DNA of 7,296 nt from Desulfobacteraceae bacterium (GTDB taxonomy: Bacteria; Desulfobacterota; Desulfobacteria; Desulfobacterales; Desulfobacteraceae): positions 1-7,296 of the forward strand of contig JAGLLQ010000539.1 of NCBI GenBank assembly GCA_023140455.1, given 5' to 3'. Below, piece after piece: positions 1 to 7,296 of this stretch (position 1 is the stretch's first letter; each line of letters begins with the position of its first letter). A model generated the notes under the pieces. That model worked only from the letters and a program-made list of their open reading frames with translations. It was not told where the DNA came from and made no database searches. Both the position numbers and the translations under genes were made by a program.

Positions 1-789
1 GCTGACCTTTCAATTTTAAACACATTTTTACAATATGGCTATGGGAAAAAACAGAAAGATGTTCTCTTTAAAATGCTACAAAAAAGTGAAAGATTACATA
101 TCAACAATCATACACTTAGTATTTCAACTATTGGCATTAAAGGGCGTATACAAAATCTTGCTGTTGTCGTTCAAATGTTCAGGGAAATTATAAATGTTGA
201 TGCAGCTTTTGGAATTTTCCATGATATTGACACAAAAAAATGTATGATAATTGGCAGAAGTGGATCAGATGAAATTAATATGGGACTTATCATGAGAAGT
301 CTCAGTGGCGGTGGACATCCTGGAGCCGGGTCTGCGCAAATTAAAGATGTTAATCCCAAAGCAGTTGAAAATATGATTATTGAATTAATCAAAGGCAATC
401 AGACTACTTCTGTTAATCTTTCTGATATCATGTCTTATCCTGTAATAACAATTAATGAAGATACAAAGGTTAAAGAAGTAGCAATGATTTTACGAGACGT
501 TGGTTGTACCGGCGTACCGATTACTGATAAAAATGATAAGCTTATTGGAATTATGTCCAGACGGGATTTTAAAAAAGTTCGAAAAGATTCACAAATGCAA
601 TCTCCTGTTAAAGCGTTTATGACTCGTAACCCTGTTAGTATTTCATATGATAAGACTGCAATGGAAGCAGCTAAATTAATGATTAAACATGACATTGGAA
701 GAATCCCAATAATTAAAAATGATAAAATAATTGGAATAGTTACCAGATCAGATACCATGCTCTATTTTTATGATCTTTTACCCGATTAA
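1..789 (+). CDS. DHHA1 plus tandem CBS-domain protein, 3' part (5' end outside window)
   Basis: The reading frame is already open at base 1, giving 24 residues before the first ATG at 73, which has no Shine-Dalgarno sequence. The true start is therefore outside the window. About 262 residues are visible. Numbered from that internal Met, residues 79-86 read GGGHPGAG, the glycine-rich signature of the DHHA1 domain that closes DHH-family phosphoesterases (NrnA/RecJ-like). The DHH metal-binding half should lie upstream. Residues about 117-170 and 180-232 form two CBS domains (typical pieces: VGCTGVPITD...LIGIMSRRD and DIGRIPII...IIGIVTRSD), a pair that in other proteins binds adenine nucleotides. 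In several bacteria this DHH-DHHA1-CBS-CBS block precedes a tRNA nucleotidyltransferase/poly(A) polymerase domain. Here the protein stops right after CBS2 (ending LLPD), so no polymerase domain is attached. Likely a cytoplasmic nucleotide-regulated phosphoesterase; substrate unknown. It is convergent with oleC and probably unrelated to the lipid operon. Confidence 0.85.
   Translation, partial: ADLSILNTFLQYGYGKKQKDVLFKMLQKSERLHINNHTLSISTIGIKGRIQNLAVVVQMFREIINVDAAFGIFHDIDTKKCMIIGRSGSDEINMGLIMRSLSGGGHPGAGSAQIKDVNPKAVENMIIELIKGNQTTSVNLSDIMSYPVITINEDTKVKEVAMILRDVGCTGVPITDKNDKLIGIMSRRDFKKVRKDSQMQSPVKAFMTRNPVSISYDKTAMEAAKLMIKHDIGRIPIIKNDKIIGIVTRSDTMLYFYDLLPD
786..789. other. Shared stop codons of two convergent genes (TTAA)
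   Basis: The palindrome TTAA supplies TAA to the rightward DHHA1-CBS gene (787-789) and TAA to leftward oleC (788-786). The two coding regions thus overlap by four bases, and no hairpin-plus-U-tract terminator is visible around the junction, so each transcript probably runs into its neighbour as antisense RNA. Confidence 0.85.
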
Positions 790-2435
790 ATTTTTAATAA
801 TTTTTTAGCTTTAACAGCAAGTTTTTCTCTGAAAATTTTTGCATTATGTCTTATATCTACTGGGAATGCATTATCTATAAAAAAATGTTTAATCTTTTTT
901 GTATGGGAAAATGAATCTGCAAGTTTAGAAAGTTCATTAATCAATTTATCTTTATCTTTTATCTTAGAAAAAGGTTCAACAAATATTACTGGAATTTGAT
1001 CTCCTTTTTTCCCAACTCCTACAAGGGCACTTCTATAAACCTTTTCATGGTTATTGAAAATTGCTTCACATGGAATTGTGAACATAGTTTCATTCTTTGT
1101 TTCAACTCGATGACTTTTCCGGCCGCAAAACCAGATTCTTTCATCTTTATCTTTCCAGGCCACATCTCCCATTCTATGCCATATTTTGCCAAAAGAGTCA
1201 GGAATTTTTCCAAAAAGGTCAGCTTTACGATTTTCAAAATAATGTTCCGTAACAAGTGGGGCTTGAACAATAATTTCTCCTACTTCACCTTCATTTAATA
1301 TATGCACATCTCTTAATTGTGAAATTGTTTCATCAGTTATTTTGATTATTTGTACAGATGTATCAAGAATTGGTCTTCCAATACATAAACCATATCCCTT
1401 TTCACTTAAGTCTCTTGTTTCAGATAATATTTCATCACTTTTTATGGAAATAATTGATACTGCTTCAGTTGCACCATAGGGAGTATGAATATAAGCATTA
1501 TCATCAAGCATAGAAGAAAATTGTTCGATATTAGCAGGAGATACTGGTGCCCCGGCAGAAATAACCCGTCTTAAAGTTGGAAGTTTAATGTTATTCTTTT
1601 TGCCATACTTTCCAAGTCTGTGTAATAGAGCAGGTGATGCAAACATATTTGTAACACCATGATTTTCAATTGCCTCTATCAATTTATCAGGATTTGCTTT
1701 GGCAGGTTTTGTAGGATCCATATCCGGAATTACAGCAGTCATAGAAAGAGCTGGATCATAAAGTGCAAAAAGAGGGAAGGTTGGCAGATCAATTTCATCA
1801 CCTTCAACTTTAAAATGATCTTTTAACTGTTCGATAAGGGCATTAAAATTTCCATGGGTATATATAACACCTTTTGCAGGTCCTGTACTTCCTGTTGTAA
1901 AAACGATAGCTGCTGTTTCATTTTTTGTTGTTTTAGCAACCCTATATTTTTCTTTTCTTGGTTTCCAGATACTTTTAAGAGTATGCCCGCCCCAAAACCA
2001 TCTTTTTCCAACAGTCACCCATGTTTTAATGGATTTAAAATACATGGGGGTCAGTTTTCTTAACACATGGGCTTTCTCAATCCCAATAAATGCTTCAGGT
2101 TTACTTTGTTCAAGGCATGAAAGCATTCTTTTAATCCCCATACCCGGATCAACAACAACCGGGACTGCTCCGATCTTAATCATGGCAAAAATTATATAAA
2201 AGAATTCTATGGATGGGGTGACCATTAATATAGTTCTGGTACCCCTGGTGATTCCAACATTTTCAAGTCCAAAAGCAATCTCGTCAGAACCTTTTTCTAA
2301 CTGCTTAAAAGTAATTTGACTATAAGTAACTCTTCCTTGTTTGTCCCTTCCTGCCGGATAAACAACTGCTCTTTTGTAAGGAAATTTTTCTGCTGAATAT
2401 TTTAGTCCTTCGGAAATATTAACAAATTTGCTCAT
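786..2435 (-). CDS. oleC: OleC, beta-lactone synthetase (ANL/AMP-forming family)
   Basis: A complete 549-residue adenylate-forming enzyme. The P-loop (A3) is FTTGSTGPAKGV at 179-190, A5 is YGATEA at 320-325, A7 is HRMGD at 420-424, A8 is CGRKSHR from 437, and the C-terminal catalytic lysine is probably K533 in DIRHNAKIFREKL. The TGSTGPAKGV loop, the WHRMGDVAW and FCGRKSHRVET segments and the DIRHNAKIFREKLA end are characteristic of OleC and not of general acyl-CoA ligases. OleC activates a 2-alkyl-3-hydroxyalkanoic acid with ATP and closes it to a beta-lactone, the step before OleB; early annotations as acyl-CoA synthetase are superseded. The start ATG overlaps the stop of the preceding gene by one base (TAATG). 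The 20 bases before it are nearly all A/T with no Shine-Dalgarno, so translation is probably coupled to the upstream gene. Its stop overlaps the stop of the convergent DHHA1-CBS gene. Cytosolic, or associated with OleB/OleD as in studied systems (inferred). Confidence 0.92.
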   Translation of the reverse strand: MSKFVNISEGLKYSAEKFPYKRAVVYPAGRDKQGRVTYSQITFKQLEKGSDEIAFGLENVGITRGTRTILMVTPSIEFFYIIFAMIKIGAVPVVVDPGMGIKRMLSCLEQSKPEAFIGIEKAHVLRKLTPMYFKSIKTWVTVGKRWFWGGHTLKSIWKPRKEKYRVAKTTKNETAAIVFTTGSTGPAKGVIYTHGNFNALIEQLKDHFKVEGDEIDLPTFPLFALYDPALSMTAVIPDMDPTKPAKANPDKLIEAIENHGVTNMFASPALLHRLGKYGKKNNIKLPTLRRVISAGAPVSPANIEQFSSMLDDNAYIHTPYGATEAVSIISIKSDEILSETRDLSEKGYGLCIGRPILDTSVQIIKITDETISQLRDVHILNEGEVGEIIVQAPLVTEHYFENRKADLFGKIPDSFGKIWHRMGDVAWKDKDERIWFCGRKSHRVETKNETMFTIPCEAIFNNHEKVYRSALVGVGKKGDQIPVIFVEPFSKIKDKDKLINELSKLADSFSHTKKIKHFFIDNAFPVDIRHNAKIFREKLAVKAKKLLKI

Positions 2436-3196
2436 TAGAATATATTTTTAATTTTGTATATTATTTTATTGATAAATCCCTGAGGCGCTTTCACTTTATT
2501 TTTTTCAATTTTCTGAATATATGGATCTAAAGTCTTAAGAGCATCAGTGGCACGGTTTAACAGTTCTTCGCTTTTTTCTTTTATCTTTTGTTCGCCTTCG
2601 TTTTTATTAACATTATATAACACATAGATTTCTTTAATTGCTTTTTCAATTTTAATAAATGTTTTTTCAACTTTTTCTTTAGCCTTTATCCAATTTTTTT
2701 TTTCTTTGTCTGCTATATTTTTTTGTTCAGGATAATTTTCACCAATTTGATTTATTCTACTAATTTCTTTATCAAATAAAAAGACTCTTAAGTCGTAGGT
2801 AACTAATGCGAAATACAAATCATTAATCTGGTAAAATGAAAACTTAAGCATCTCGTCAGGCAGGTTTATATTTTTAAGAACAACTGATTTATATTCTATT
2901 GGTTCATCTGAAGTTGAAAAATATGTTTTATAAACAAAAAAGGAAGAGCCTGCAAGAATTAATACAAGTACAGAAAAGATTACAAGGTTTTTTACAGTCA
3001 AAAAATTTTTCTTTTTTGATGACTTTTCACTTTTATCAGGCGTATCATCTTTATCAGGTTTACCTGAAGATTCTTTTTTGTTTTTCTTCTCTAACCTAGC
3101 TGCAGCTTTTGCCTTTTTTTTTGCTTCTTTAGCTTCTTTTTTTGCAGCCTTTTTGTCAGCTTTTTCCTGTTTTTTTTCTTTTGATTTGTCAGCCAT
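2435..3196 (-). CDS. Unrecognised lysine-rich single-pass membrane protein between oleB and oleC
   Basis: A 253-residue protein that I do not recognise. Residues 1-63 are extremely polar and basic (25 lysines in the first 64 residues, with Ala/Glu-rich KKAAKKEAKEAKKKAKAAA runs), probably cytoplasmic and partly helical. Residues about 68-92 form one hydrophobic transmembrane helix (NLVIFSVLVLILAGSSFFVY) with KKK just before it, so the positive-inside rule predicts N-terminus in, C-terminus out. The remaining 160 residues are mixed and charged, with a Lys/Glu-rich helical stretch around 160-235 that could be a coiled coil, and a basic tail. There is no signal peptidase site, lipobox, cysteine pair or known catalytic motif. 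It sits 43 nt after oleB, and its stop overlaps the oleC start by one base, so it is part of the operon. A weak AGG lies 12 nt before the ATG; a possible own promoter is listed separately. A scaffold tethering Ole enzymes to the membrane is a guess. Low-complexity composition makes distant homology hard to see. Confidence 0.8.
   Translation of the reverse strand: MADKSKEKKQEKADKKAAKKEAKEAKKKAKAAARLEKKNKKESSGKPDKDDTPDKSEKSSKKKNFLTVKNLVIFSVLVLILAGSSFFVYKTYFSTSDEPIEYKSVVLKNINLPDEMLKFSFYQINDLYFALVTYDLRVFLFDKEISRINQIGENYPEQKNIADKEKKNWIKAKEKVEKTFIKIEKAIKEIYVLYNVNKNEGEQKIKEKSEELLNRATDALKTLDPYIQKIEKNKVKAPQGFINKIIYKIKNIF
2694..3177 (-). repeat. Three poly-A tracts inside the lysine-rich gene
   Basis: On the coding strand, runs of 8 A (3177-3170), 9 A (3122-3114) and 10 A (2703-2694) occur within lysine codons. 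They follow from AAA codon preference in an AT-rich genome, but runs of 9-10 A are known sites of polymerase slippage. The frame is intact as given. Confidence 0.6.
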
Positions 3197-3202
3197 ATTT
3201 AA

Positions 3203-3231
3203 TTAATACCTGAGCATTTAAAAAATGTCAA
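3203..3231 (-). promoter_or_regulatory. Possible sigma70-type promoter ahead of the lysine-rich membrane gene
   Basis: In the 43-nt gap after oleB the minus strand shows an exact TTGACA (3231-3226), a 17-nt spacer and TATTAA (3208-3203; four of six matches to TATAAT). Transcription would begin about 6-7 nt downstream, almost at the ATG at 3196, giving a leaderless or near-leaderless message for the membrane protein and oleC. The AT-rich background makes chance -10 boxes common, but an exact -35 at ideal spacing is less usual. Unproven. Confidence 0.3.
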
Positions 3232-3239
3232 AATAGACA

Positions 3240-4154
3240 TTAATTATTTAAAAACTTTTCTATTAATAATAATGTTTCAGAAGGTTTGTCCTCAAAAATA
3301 TAGTGCCCTGAGTTTTCAAAAACATGATATTCAGCTTTGGGAATTCTTTTTTTCCATTCATTTAAAACATTTTTATCAAAAACAAAATCTTTTAAACCCC
3401 ACAAAAACAAAAGAGGAAAGTCTTTAATTTTATATAAATTTTCATCAACGGTTTTAACAATATTATAAGATATATCAGTTTCAGTTAAAGGGATATCCTG
3501 TACAAATTTTAATGTTGCAATTCTGTTTTCCCATGAATTATATGGTGCAGTTAATCCTTTTTTTATCTCTTTTGAAAGTTTAGTCTTAGCTGCGATATAA
3601 AGTGCACCTACAGAAAATATATTAAGTCCTAAGACAGCTGGCACACCAAATGGTGTAAAATATTTAATTAAGGCTAATCTTAAAGGAAAATTTTTACTTT
3701 GAGGCCTTAAAAATCCAAAGGTATTTGTAATGATTATTTTTTCTATTTGTGAAAGGTTATCCAATGCCCAGGCAAGACCTATCATTCCTCCCCAGTCGTG
3801 AACTATAAGGGTTATTTTCTCTTTAAGATTAAGATGTTCTATAAATCTTGTAAGGTCGGCAACCCTGTTCTCAAGTGTATAATTATAATCCTTAACTCCT
3901 GGTTTATCTGAAAACCCGCATCCAATGTGATCTGGGACAATTGTTCTATAATTATTTGAAAATTTATTAACAACGTTTCTAAAATAAAATGACCATGTTG
4001 GATTACCATGAACCATTAATAAAGGTTTACCCCTGCCTTCATCGATATAATGCATATCAAATCCATTATTTTTAAAATAATTTGATTTATAAGGATAAAT
4101 TTCTTTAAAACCTTTTGTTGAAACAATTTTGTTATTGATTGTTCTTTTTGTCAT
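3240..4154 (-). CDS. oleB: OleB, beta-lactone decarboxylase (haloalkane dehalogenase-like alpha/beta hydrolase)
   Basis: A complete 304-residue alpha/beta hydrolase of the haloalkane-dehalogenase-like group. Visible are the oxyanion/halide-site motif HGNPTW (49-54), the nucleophile elbow VHDWGG (118-123) with nucleophile Asp120, a probable acid Asp256 in LWGLKD, and the catalytic His284 in NSGHY. An Asp nucleophile followed by Trp is the dehalogenase/OleB pattern, unlike the Ser of esterases. Alone the sequence would be called a dehalogenase, but its position directly after oleA and near oleC identifies it as OleB, which opens the beta-lactone made by OleC and releases CO2 to give a cis-olefin. 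The start ATG lies one base after the oleA TAA. An AGTGG four bases before the ATG overlaps the last oleA codons and can serve as a ribosome site, so the two genes are probably translationally coupled. The next gene starts 43 nt downstream. Haloalkane dehalogenase activity cannot be excluded from sequence alone but is unlikely here. Confidence 0.9.
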   Translation of the reverse strand: MTKRTINNKIVSTKGFKEIYPYKSNYFKNNGFDMHYIDEGRGKPLLMVHGNPTWSFYFRNVVNKFSNNYRTIVPDHIGCGFSDKPGVKDYNYTLENRVADLTRFIEHLNLKEKITLIVHDWGGMIGLAWALDNLSQIEKIIITNTFGFLRPQSKNFPLRLALIKYFTPFGVPAVLGLNIFSVGALYIAAKTKLSKEIKKGLTAPYNSWENRIATLKFVQDIPLTETDISYNIVKTVDENLYKIKDFPLLFLWGLKDFVFDKNVLNEWKKRIPKAEYHVFENSGHYIFEDKPSETLLLIEKFLNN

Positions 4155-4155
4155 T

Positions 4156-5205
4156 TTACCACTTAATACCCATCACTAAACAATTGAGCCCACTACCGAC
4201 ACCAATGAAACAGACAAGATCATCTTTTTGTAAAAAATCCCTTTCATCTGCAATTGCAGCTGTAATTGGCAATGAAACTGATCCAATATTTCCTAAATAT
4301 GGAAAAGTTGCAAAATCTTTTTTTATATCAATCCCAAGTGCTTTATAAAAAGATTGATGATGAACAGCACCTACCTGATGTCCAATAAATTTATCTATAT
4401 TATCCGGAGATAATTTAAATTCCTGTAAGAATTTTGTAAAGGTCTCAACCACGAGCTTAGTACCATTTTCAAGGACTGAATTAGCCTGTGTTCTCATAAT
4501 GATCTTTGAATTAACCGGCATTCCCTTTTCGGAAAATCCCCAGCTACATAAATTATGGTGCTGGATTGAATTTTTTATAACGGCACCTTTAATCTGGTGT
4601 TTGGAATTATTGTTTGAAAATGATCCATCTGTCAGGAGCACTGCTACTGCGCCGGATCCACCGGTCATTGTGGCAAGAGTCTCTTTATAAAAAGCTAAGG
4701 TCTTATTCTCATTAATTTCATCAATTGTAGAGTCTATAATTTGCCTTGAAGTTTCACACGATACAACAAGGCCAGCTTTAATTTGCCCAAGTTCAATTGC
4801 ATTTGCAACTTGAATCATACCGGATATAACACCGAGGCAGGCATTTGATACATCATAAATATGAGCATCTTTGCTGATATTTAAATTGTCAGCAATCGAG
4901 CATGAGGTGGCAGGTTCAAACCCTTCCTTGCAGACACCGCAAAAAACTAATGAGTCAATTTGATCAGGAGAAATTCCAGACTCGTCAATAGCTTTTTGAC
5001 CTGCTTTAACAGCTTCTTCAGATATTGAATGGTCAATATCCCAGCATCTTCTCTCTTTTATTCCGGTAAGCGCAAGAATCTGCCCGGGATTAAAATCAGT
5101 GACATCATAAAAGGGTTTTAATCTTTCTTCTATTTCATCAGTGGTTAAGACATTGGGTGCTAACTCATAACCAAATGCTTCAATAAATACTTTCGAATAT
5201 CTCAT
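4156..5205 (-). CDS. oleA: OleA, thiolase-fold acyl-CoA condensing enzyme for head-to-head hydrocarbon synthesis
   Basis: A complete 349-residue thiolase-fold condensing enzyme of the KAS III/FabH relatives. The catalytic set of OleA is visible: Cys123 in SNACLG, Glu97 in EGFEPAT (26 residues before the Cys, as Glu117/Cys143 in Xanthomonas OleA), His276 in GHQVG and Asn306 in LGNIGS (30 residues after the His, as His285/Asn315 there). The C-terminal GVGSGLNC also matches OleA. The Glu97 position distinguishes OleA from FabH; the enzyme joins two fatty acyl thioesters by a non-decarboxylative Claisen condensation into a 2-alkyl-3-ketoalkanoate. It is the first committed step of the olefin pathway encoded by the next genes. 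The start at 5205 is supported by GAGA six bases upstream and lies 38 nt after the PfaC-like gene; no promoter is obvious in that gap. oleB follows after one base. Which acyl chains it accepts cannot be read here, but its neighbour suggests products of the Pfa-like synthase. Confidence 0.93.
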   Translation of the reverse strand: MRYSKVFIEAFGYELAPNVLTTDEIEERLKPFYDVTDFNPGQILALTGIKERRCWDIDHSISEEAVKAGQKAIDESGISPDQIDSLVFCGVCKEGFEPATSCSIADNLNISKDAHIYDVSNACLGVISGMIQVANAIELGQIKAGLVVSCETSRQIIDSTIDEINENKTLAFYKETLATMTGGSGAVAVLLTDGSFSNNNSKHQIKGAVIKNSIQHHNLCSWGFSEKGMPVNSKIIMRTQANSVLENGTKLVVETFTKFLQEFKLSPDNIDKFIGHQVGAVHHQSFYKALGIDIKKDFATFPYLGNIGSVSLPITAAIADERDFLQKDDLVCFIGVGSGLNCLVMGIKW

Positions 5206-5211
5206 TATTTA

Positions 5212-5215
5212 TCTC
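5212..5215 (-). promoter_or_regulatory. Ribosome binding site of oleA
   Basis: The minus strand reads GAGA followed by six bases and then the oleA ATG at 5205. It is short, but it is the only purine-rich element in the 38-nt gap and fixes the start chosen for oleA. Confidence 0.45.
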
Positions 5216-5243
5216 AATTTATTTTCAAAAAATTTCTTATAAA

Positions 5244-7296
5244 TTATTTCCACAGATCTTCTATCTCTTGTTGGATAAGACCTTTAATTTTTATTCCCAT
5301 GTTTTTATAAAATACAATCTGCAAATCATCAGAAAACATATGAGCATCTGCAATTATATATGGCTCAGGATTATAACCAATATCTTTTATTTCAATGTAA
5401 TAACCTGCTTTTTTAGTCTCGATTGTAACGGGTCCTCTACATTTAAGATCACTTTCAACACCGTCAATAATATCATAAAAAACATCATCTCTATTTGAAA
5501 CCCATCCCATTCTCAATGTAAAAATTCTCAAAGCATGGGAGCAGCATTCATACATGAGGGTCCCTGGCATTACCATGTCATCTATAAAATGACAAGTCAA
5601 AAACCAATGATCTTTTTTAATATCAGCTTGAGCTGTTATGGAACCAAGACCAAATCGTCCGCCCTCAGGATCAAGTTCTGTAACACGATCAATTAAATGC
5701 ATTCTTTTACCAGGCAATCTCATGGATTTTCCAAGTTTAATACCCTTAAACTGATCACCAAATGCAAATTCAAGGTCTAAGTTTCGTAAAGCTTCTATTT
5801 TTGCATCACTAAAACTCTCTTTAATAAAGTTGACAGGTGGTTTAAATTGTTTTTCTTTTAATTTTTTTTCAGCATCTTCATTTTTTAATATAATCCCTCC
5901 GGAATTTTCTACTTCTTCAGGAGTAAAAAAGCCAGCACACCCATCACGCATAGAAATTAACAACTGATCATTAATATATCCTTTATAGTGGAAAAAGAAA
6001 AGATATACATCACCCTGATTTAAAAAACGATCAATTTCAATATGATACTCAATAGTCTCTCCTGGCTCAGGAAGAGTTCTGTGAAAAGTGACCTTTGCAT
6101 CAAGCAGTCTGTAGCTTCTGATACCTTTAACTTTATGATCAATTCCAAGATAAGATGAAAGGAATAAATCTGCCTGGCCTGCTTCAATTGAAATAGAAAC
6201 AGGTGCCTTGCCACCATCAAGATACCATGCATCAGGTTTTACATCATGTTGAGTAACAATCTTCCCGGGATTTAAAGAAAGCATTTCGCCTTCAATATTC
6301 ATTATCCTGTCAACTAGCATTAAAGGTTCTGCGGGAAGCCTGACCCGTACTGGATAAGTATCTATAATTTCAAATTTTTCCCCTAATACATTTGAAGCTT
6401 TTCCAATTGCAAATTCTATACATTGCTCTCTATCAAATAGTGGTTTTAATTCAATATTTTCTACAATTGCTGAATCGGGCGTCAAAGATGAAATCTTTGT
6501 TAAAGCTTTAAATTGTTCCTCTAAGCCGCGCATATTCTCTTTTGTCAGCTCAAGAAATTTATTATGTGCCTTTGCTGTGTCTTCAGCACTTTTAACAATC
6601 AACTCAGGGTTTGATTCCGGATAGTATTGATCAGCTATATAATTATTATTAATTGCCCTGGGTTTTTTATACTCTTCAATGAGAATATGTGAGCATGCCC
6701 CATCATCTGTAATTGATGCGATGCAGGCCTGTCTTTTATTAATTACCTGATTTTTTTCAATGAGCATTGATCTGTTAAGAGACAATATACCTTTAATAAA
6801 TGAAATAAGGCCGGATACTCCCTTAGTGTCACCTACAATTGAGTTGGCGGATTCAAAATTGATTGAGGAGGTTGAATAAGATTTTCCTCCAATATATTCT
6901 TTTAAAGCATTAGTCTCAATTTTTTTTTCTTCTTGATAAGCTGCTGAACTAAGTTCATAATGCTCAATATTTTCAAAACCTGATAAACTGTTTTCAAAAC
7001 ATCTTTTTAAAGATAATTGATAGACATTTTTAATTCTTTCATTATTCAAATTCCTTTCACATCTTAATTCTCCTGCTGAACCCTTACCTGTTCCTTTAAT
7101 TATCCCATAAATTTTATCATTATCTTTTTCAGCCTGATCCAATGTCTTTAAAACAACAGCTCCTGCACCTTCAGAAAAAAAATAATCAGGTATACTCTTC
7201 TCAAAGGGGATTAAGCTTTTATTTAATTTAAATTGTCGAATATCAGAGGCCATATCAACACTGCCACATAAAAAAACATTTGTTTCTCCGGATGTG
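5244..7296 (-). CDS. pfaC: PfaC-type secondary-lipid/PUFA synthase subunit, C-terminal part: chain-length factor end plus FabA-like dehydratase hot-dogs
   Basis: About 683 C-terminal residues are seen. The frame stays open to the right edge (TSGETNVFLCGSVD precedes the Met at 7253), so that Met is internal. Numbered from it, residues 1-200 are the end of a ketosynthase fold: FFSEGAGAVVLK (25-36), then NSIVGDTKGVSGLISFIK (137-154), where active ketosynthases have GH and this one has GD at 141-142. That fits the catalytically silent chain-length factor (CLF) of PfaC. After a linker, residues about 296-450 form a FabA-like hot-dog without the catalytic His (WYLDGGKAPVSISIEAGQ at 343-360). Residues about 505-660 form a second hot-dog with an intact site: His555 in CHF, then VMPGTLMYEC with Glu569. 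It would dehydrate beta-hydroxyacyl-ACP intermediates during iterative chain building in the cytosol. PfaC is usually KS-CLF-DH-DH; the upstream KS and other pfa genes are expected to the right. oleA begins 38 nt after its stop. Automated pipelines may call it a beta-ketoacyl synthase. Confidence 0.85.
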   Translation of the reverse strand, partial: TSGETNVFLCGSVDMASDIRQFKLNKSLIPFEKSIPDYFFSEGAGAVVLKTLDQAEKDNDKIYGIIKGTGKGSAGELRCERNLNNERIKNVYQLSLKRCFENSLSGFENIEHYELSSAAYQEEKKIETNALKEYIGGKSYSTSSINFESANSIVGDTKGVSGLISFIKGILSLNRSMLIEKNQVINKRQACIASITDDGACSHILIEEYKKPRAINNNYIADQYYPESNPELIVKSAEDTAKAHNKFLELTKENMRGLEEQFKALTKISSLTPDSAIVENIELKPLFDREQCIEFAIGKASNVLGEKFEIIDTYPVRVRLPAEPLMLVDRIMNIEGEMLSLNPGKIVTQHDVKPDAWYLDGGKAPVSISIEAGQADLFLSSYLGIDHKVKGIRSYRLLDAKVTFHRTLPEPGETIEYHIEIDRFLNQGDVYLFFFHYKGYINDQLLISMRDGCAGFFTPEEVENSGGIILKNEDAEKKLKEKQFKPPVNFIKESFSDAKIEALRNLDLEFAFGDQFKGIKLGKSMRLPGKRMHLIDRVTELDPEGGRFGLGSITAQADIKKDHWFLTCHFIDDMVMPGTLMYECCSHALRIFTLRMGWVSNRDDVFYDIIDGVESDLKCRGPVTIETKKAGYYIEIKDIGYNPEPYIIADAHMFSDDLQIVFYKNMGIKIKGLIQQEIEDLWK

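Follow-up and report, generated by a model that had tools for sequence, protein, structure and literature searches.

A PfaC-type synthase gene without an acyltransferase domain adjoins oleA in Desulfobacteraceae and may serve hydrocarbon synthesis

Results

Genes of the window

The current work concerns a stretch of 7,296 nucleotides (nt) from a Desulfobacteraceae bacterium (GenBank assembly GCA_023140455.1, contig JAGLLQ010000539.1, positions 1 to 7,296), hereafter the window, in which the 3' end of a gene for a PfaC-type synthase is followed by oleA, oleB and oleC. On the minus strand, and in the order of transcription, the PfaC-type open reading frame (ORF; 7295..5244) encodes the C-terminal 683 amino acids (aa) of the synthase, its 5' end being located beyond the window edge. 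It is followed after 38 nt by oleA (5205..4156, 349 aa) and, one base beyond the oleA stop at 4156, by oleB (4154..3240, 304 aa). Both junctions are as an earlier note on this DNA had described them, and its account of the gene row holds for these three genes but stops two genes short. A further spacer of 43 nt separates oleB from a gene (2435..3196) whose lysine-rich product of 253 aa is predicted to have a single membrane helix; this gene in turn overlaps by 1 nt with oleC (786..2435, 549 aa), encoding a probable olefin beta-lactone synthetase. The five genes are presumably co-transcribed. A promoter and terminator scan retrieved 36 promoter-like sites (shuffle mean 32.8) and two terminator-like sites (shuffle mean 3.7), and because these counts are near the shuffle means they do not help to decide whether oleA has an internal promoter.

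The PfaC-type protein comprises the end of the chain-length factor (CLF), a linker of about 80 aa and two dehydratase (DH) domains, DH1 and DH2, represented in Pfam by Ketoacyl-synt_C and two FabA-like stretches (PF07977, E 1.5e-37). The tandem FabA-like DH domains expected at a PfaC C-terminus are thus present, and the pair is strongly conserved across 15 aligned rows. While the window holds only the CLF end of the ketosynthase (KS)-CLF part, complete relatives at loci L002 and L013 display two ketosynthase-type domains followed by the DH pair. Since the CLF ends at about residue 202 and DH1 starts at about residue 286, there is no room between them for an acyltransferase (AT) domain, and the window protein does not show the AT fused into PfaC that marks the pfaBC fusions of Types C and I of Shulse and Allen.

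The OleA protein scored 439.5 bits with the NCBIfam model PRK09258 (cut-off 285) and matched solved OleA-like structures over its full length, for example 3row, which we take to be Xanthomonas OleA. It is a thiolase with Cys, Glu, His and Asn at the catalytic places of OleA (C123, E97, H276 and N306), the last three presumably having their usual roles in the active site. OleB and OleC homologues accompany it. The oleB product is an alpha/beta hydrolase by its family matches, and its closest models are those of haloalkane dehalogenases, with scores below their cut-offs; from family and gene place it is assumed to be a probable beta-lactone decarboxylase. OleC scored 608.6 and 586.6 bits with two olefin beta-lactone synthetase models, which are lineage-specific and have cut-offs of 850 and 900, and 725.8 bits with PRK09274, exceeding the cut-off of 478. 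Regarding OleA, the residue corresponding to C123 is the named catalytic residue of the Shewanella enzyme (PMC6463001).

The named best protein matches of the window belong to Desulfobacteraceae and Desulfobacula, and among the loci L002, from a Desulfobacterales bacterium, comes nearest with 76% identity over the best segment, followed by L001, from a Desulfobacteraceae bacterium, with 72%. A search of viral contigs with the PfaC fragment returned no relative.

Linkage of pfaC and oleA among relatives

For comparison, the best 80 of at least 518 relatives in GTDB genomes were used, a selection biased towards the window, in which L001 to L033 are referred to as inner loci and the remainder as outer loci. 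OleA was found in 55 of the 80 loci, in every case downstream of pfaC and on the same strand; among the 25 loci without an OleA match, five have fewer than 700 bases downstream and seven carry oleB but no oleA. In addition, 86 genomes of the GTDB family of Desulfospira were searched (E <= 1e-60) for the PfaC DH pair and for OleA, which were found in 70 and 71 genomes, respectively, and together in 67. In 59 of these 67 genomes the two matches lie within 173 nt on one strand, in one they are separated by a 1,620-nt gap and in seven they fall on different contigs. Considering the invariable position and strand of OleA in the 55 loci and the proximity in 59 of 67 family genomes, the linkage is more than chance.

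When the junction was inspected base by base in 28 inner loci, 22 showed a 4-nt and three a 1-nt overlap of the pfaC stop with the oleA start (25/28), overlaps of a kind typical of translational coupling, the remaining three having spacers of 6, 13 and 63 nt. The assumption of the earlier note that pfa and ole are not linked elsewhere has to be abandoned, because published work places the pfa and ole operons of Photobacterium profundum SS9 next to each other (Allemann 2019, PMC6463001) and describes for Geobacter bemidjiensis, a producer of C31:9, a tandem arrangement of pfaD, A, B and C, oleA, B, C and D and pfaE (2016 review, PMC4882568).

Eight clusters have pfaC or pfaBC together with oleB and no linked oleA (L037, L038, L041, L063, L066, L070, L073 and L152, the last in genome G045). 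Each of these genomes holds one divergent OleA elsewhere, 34-38% identical to that of the window, which suggests displacement of the linked oleA by another OleA; the six that were read in frame all keep the four residues checked. The idea that such clusters make terminal alkenes was dropped, as a divergent OleA is encoded elsewhere in each of the eight genomes.

Absence of the acyltransferase from window-type PfaC

The complete window-type proteins of L002 (1,331 aa) and L013 (1,430 aa) contain no AT. They align to the KS-CLF part and the first DH pair of the PfaBC proteins encoded at the outer loci L043 (2,400 residues) and L078 (2,354 residues), which display KS, CLF, AT (GYSLG) and two DH pairs, with the AT placed between CLF and DH1; about 640 residues, including the AT, are skipped in this alignment. 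An AT query matched 68 of the 86 family genomes (E <= 1e-15), the majority through weak matches in PfaA-type frames. Among the 70 genomes with PfaC, a strong AT match (about 240 bits or more for the best piece) within or next to the PfaC frame was obtained in 14, one of which (G087) has in-frame stops in its PfaC match, while 52 have no AT there and four have contig-edge frames too short to judge.

Among genomes with both genes, pfaC and oleA are linked in 48 of 51 that lack the AT and in eight of 12 that bear it. No association of AT loss with linkage is claimed, as these rows share ancestry. The three AT-less exceptions are due to contig-end breaks (G063, G064) and to a 1.6-kb insert in G070, where a 426-codon ORF (L151:338-1618) is located between pfaC and oleA.

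A single clade of all AT-less rows was rejected by an approximately unbiased (AU) test on a tree of the DH pair (39 rows, p 0.000117), a value to be read with the caveats that an earlier tree had already shown this grouping, that deep branches are unresolved, that the outgroup has a long branch and that the AT-bearing L027 falls among the AT-less rows. With the same caveats, the tree speaks against one single loss of the AT and suggests at least two.

The second DH pair, which is C-terminal in PfaBC of outer clusters (for example L043:5465-12667), forms the last part of PfaA in three inner genomes (L121:8437-16140, L123:9179-16753 and L139:4247-12496), with 45-51% identity, versus about 24-27% to the first pair; the single outer PfaA that was tested did not show it. 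This amounts to a domain move between subunits.

The AT-less, split arrangement joined to oleA appears to be new, the linkage itself being already known. No AT-less PfaC-oleA operon was described in the literature searched, which was covered as text only, so that Figure 1 of PMC3098273 (Type S, Desulfobacterium autotrophicum) could show one.

Location of pfaA, pfaD and oleD

The earlier note had proposed to look for pfaA/B/D-like genes to the right on the contig, upstream of pfaC. Such genes were not encountered at L002, the nearest relative with upstream sequence, where five of six upstream ORFs were scanned without any pfa domain and where tblastn retrieved neither PfaD nor the carrier-ketoreductase (KR) part of PfaA; in that genome, pfaD-pfaA and oleD are located on contigs other than that of pfaC. 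In Desulfospira joergensenii, pfaA and pfaD are about 18 kb apart and share a contig with pfaC, from which they are some 0.3 Mb away, whereas in Desulfobacter latus pfaD and pfaA follow oleC (L024:17224-22202), which places both synthase halves in one cluster. In the genome of the outer locus L078, pfaD-pfaA lies about 3.5 kb upstream of the PfaBC gene with opposite-strand ORFs between them. The genome of L018 carries a second pfa-type cluster (L140, G014:C26) besides its pfaC-ole locus. At outer loci oleD follows oleC on the same strand in 22 of the 29 that have oleC.

The small membrane protein and the convergent neighbour

The 253-aa protein is predicted by structural modelling to consist of a lysine-rich N-terminal helix, a membrane helix at about residues 68-93 and a helical C-terminal domain (mean predicted local distance difference test score 79.3, predicted template modelling score 0.55). 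The model had no PDB match at E <= 0.001, for which reason no function is claimed, and no family scored above its cut-off; that the protein might anchor the Ole enzymes to the membrane is a guess. A protein search retrieved 24 members, one of them (P0121) at 100% identity. Of the 23 inner loci that have both oleB and oleC, 15 carry the gene in the interval between these two, the other eight having a gap of 20-292 nt at this place.

On the plus strand (1..789), the 3' part of a gene for a DHHA1/CBS protein related to A-adding tRNA nucleotidyltransferases converges on oleC; it flanks the operon and is not part of it. A convergent gene of this kind lies at most 200 nt after oleC in 19 of the 23 inner loci showing oleC.

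Discussion

A proposed route from a split Pfa synthase to OleA

The dedicated Pfa-to-Ole route proposed in the earlier note is the best reading of the family-wide linkage and of the stop/start overlaps, the linkage being shown by sequence and the hand-over of chains inferred. In the reading that we favour, albeit with modest confidence, a split Pfa synthase would mainly serve hydrocarbon synthesis, OleA would be its off-loading step and the product would be a C31:9-like alkene. PfaA and PfaD, encoded elsewhere in most relatives examined, would work with the PfaC of the operon, and a polyunsaturated acyl chain would be built on the carrier domains of PfaA. OleA would then take two such chains, most likely of about C16, and condense them, following which OleD (also encoded elsewhere), OleC and OleB would convert the OleA product to a long polyunsaturated alkene such as C31:9. 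The PfaB-type terminal AT being missing from PfaC, its place as the chain-removal step is probably taken over by OleA. The likely product would accordingly be of a known alkene kind, and not the unusual very long olefin or ketone envisaged in the earlier note.

Published chemistry fits this reading, because PfaB is reported to be needed for processing beyond C18, polyunsaturated fatty acids (PUFA) of longer chain not being formed without it (Lofeudo 2026, PMC12895367), and because a predicted 16:4 chain is used by Shewanella OleA, which forms its ketone also in an Escherichia coli fadD mutant (PMC6463001). In the same source, Shewanella OleA lowers eicosapentaenoic acid (EPA) about tenfold even as an active-site mutant, and this effect of a catalytically dead enzyme suggests contact between OleA and the Pfa system.

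A more specific version of the favoured reading is put forward only tentatively. It states that the Desulfobacteraceae Pfa system is a hydrocarbon synthase in which a translationally coupled OleA replaces the PfaB-type AT, the latter having been lost at least twice once the coupling existed.

Several points weigh against the favoured reading. To our knowledge, neither a transcript nor a product is known for any organism of the window type. At the window's own pfaC-oleA junction there is a spacer and no overlap, and since AT-bearing PfaC is also joined to oleA in most cases, AT loss and linkage are not tightly tied. Furthermore, pfaA, pfaD and oleD of the window organism are assumed from its relatives. 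To these are to be added the AT-family domains outside PfaC, which bear on the strongest alternative.

Alternative explanations

In that alternative, which we regard as possible though doubtful, Pfa and Ole would be co-expressed and share substrates without OleA acting as the off-loading step, the chains being released otherwise and then passing as acyl-CoA to OleA or into membrane lipids. Candidates for such a release are the AT of PfaA, the AT of a megasynthase of about 3,800 residues, a stand-alone AT and an unlinked thioesterase. The last finds a precedent in Photobacterium and Shewanella, where the thioesterase PfaT supports the output of Pfa products (PMC6463001). In order to survey the ATs, PF00698 was run on 23 AT-less genomes (8 + 15; G014 was left out, being AT-bearing), all 23 of which were found to hold at least two AT-family domains. 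Further domains, beyond those of PfaA and of one large synthase, occur in eight (G008, G010, G019, G046, G047, G051, G052 and G074), which count against OleA as the sole exit. The statement that AT-less genomes hold no other acyltransferase is too wide, given that seven of the 15 added genomes have such extra domains. Stand-alone AT frames of fewer than 600 residues are present in six of the eight genomes, and eight domains were examined, a short ninth (G047) being left out. All eight keep a PGQG-type glutamine and are closer to the MAT domain of PfaA than to the PfaC-borne AT; six also keep the malonyl-type arginine, while those of G046 (L172) and G010 (L175) do not. These two could accept other acyl groups and are candidates for another acyl transfer or a hydrolysis role, again to the detriment of the favoured reading.

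Against other release stands, in the first place, the fact that the only AT-family domains in 15 of the 23 genomes (7/8 of the first set and 8/15 of the second) are those of PfaA and of the giant synthase, a count that covers ATs and not thioesterases. Secondly, the AT of PfaA has malonyl-type residues: in two inner genomes and one outer genome it keeps the glutamine of FPGQG and the arginine after GHSFG, whereas three PfaC-borne ATs have PGSG and no arginine, the same glutamine/arginine pair that separates PfaA-MAT from PfaB (Lofeudo 2026, PMC12895367). Thirdly, OleA formed its ketone without FadD (PMC6463001). Neither two AT queries nor PF00698 revealed a PfaB-type AT in the AT-less relatives, though a divergent PfaB could be missed by these searches.

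The giant synthase itself (L125:7740-19190 and similar, mostly 3,700-4,000 residues) displays an NMO-type enoyl reductase (ER), KS domains, an AT, three carriers, a KR and a DH. By analogy, it may be a core fatty acid synthase, a role earlier suggested by Shulse and Allen for Desulfobacterium autotrophicum (PMC3098273). In 17 of the 23 AT-less genomes, PF00698 retrieved no stand-alone AT-family protein such as FabD.

A second alternative, which is judged to be unlikely, is that the synthase is not of the polyunsaturated type and provides saturated or monounsaturated chains, the Ole product then being a less unsaturated long alkene or a ketone. It gains from the lack of a known product and from the fact that the window cannot show a KR, an ER or the PfaA dehydratases. 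The strong conservation of the DH1-DH2 pair argues against it, and so does the full set carried by relatives: PfaD scored over its cut-off in 28 of 28 genomes, the PfaA model matched in all of 30 (17 of them over its cut-off, compared to 11 matches and none over the cut-off among 14 control genomes) and scans of two PfaA proteins revealed KS, MAT, KR and dehydratase domains together with two carrier domains in each.

Neither the window nor any of the 33 inner loci, of which 23 show oleC, has oleD, which might indicate that the pathway ends at a ketone or at another product instead of an alkene. This is very improbable, seeing that all of the 30 genomes searched, 26 of which belong to inner loci, hold an OleD homologue and that two of these unlinked homologues matched best with OleD-type models (E 3.5e-119 and 1.6e-124, below the strict cut-offs).

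Comparison with known systems

The closest published parallel is Geobacter bemidjiensis (Type I of Shulse and Allen), where a Pfa-like synthase and Ole genes also stand in tandem and the product is C31:9 (PMC4882568, PMC3098273). Type I has, however, a pfaBC fusion (PMC3098273), while the window PfaC is without AT; moreover, pfaD-pfaA and oleD of the window type are located elsewhere in most relatives examined, and the window has an extra small membrane-protein gene before oleC. With P. profundum SS9 and Shewanella, the complete proteins of the window type share the PfaC order KS-CLF-DH-DH (PMC3098273), and the window type resembles Shewanella in the proposed feeding of OleA by Pfa chains and SS9 in the adjacency of the operons (PMC6463001). 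These bacteria keep a separate pfaB acyltransferase and the PfaT thioesterase, whereas the AT-less genomes examined yielded no PfaB-type AT, PfaT not having been searched for. The outer Desulfobacterales clusters (L043, L078) likewise have PfaBC followed by oleA, oleB and oleC, and differ in that their PfaBC holds an AT and a second DH pair and in that oleD follows oleC.

Among sulfate reducers, Desulfotalea psychrophila contains C31:8 and C31:9 (PMC2649909). According to the reviewer summary printed with that article, the polyketide-type PUFA pathway is absent from this organism, and for this reason Desulfotalea supports the product class in sulfate reducers and not the present gene route.

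Significance

Chain termination and release by Pfa synthases are still under study, and the clusters described here form a natural series with and without a PfaB-type AT, most of them joined to oleA, which offers a test of OleA as the terminal acceptor. Such a role would help to explain why the Ole route employs a C16 chain instead of EPA or docosahexaenoic acid (DHA). Under the favoured reading, polyunsaturated hydrocarbons are also to be expected from marine sulfate reducers; this would have a bearing on lipid biomarkers, and the cultured relatives Desulfobacter latus and Desulfospira joergensenii make this prediction testable.

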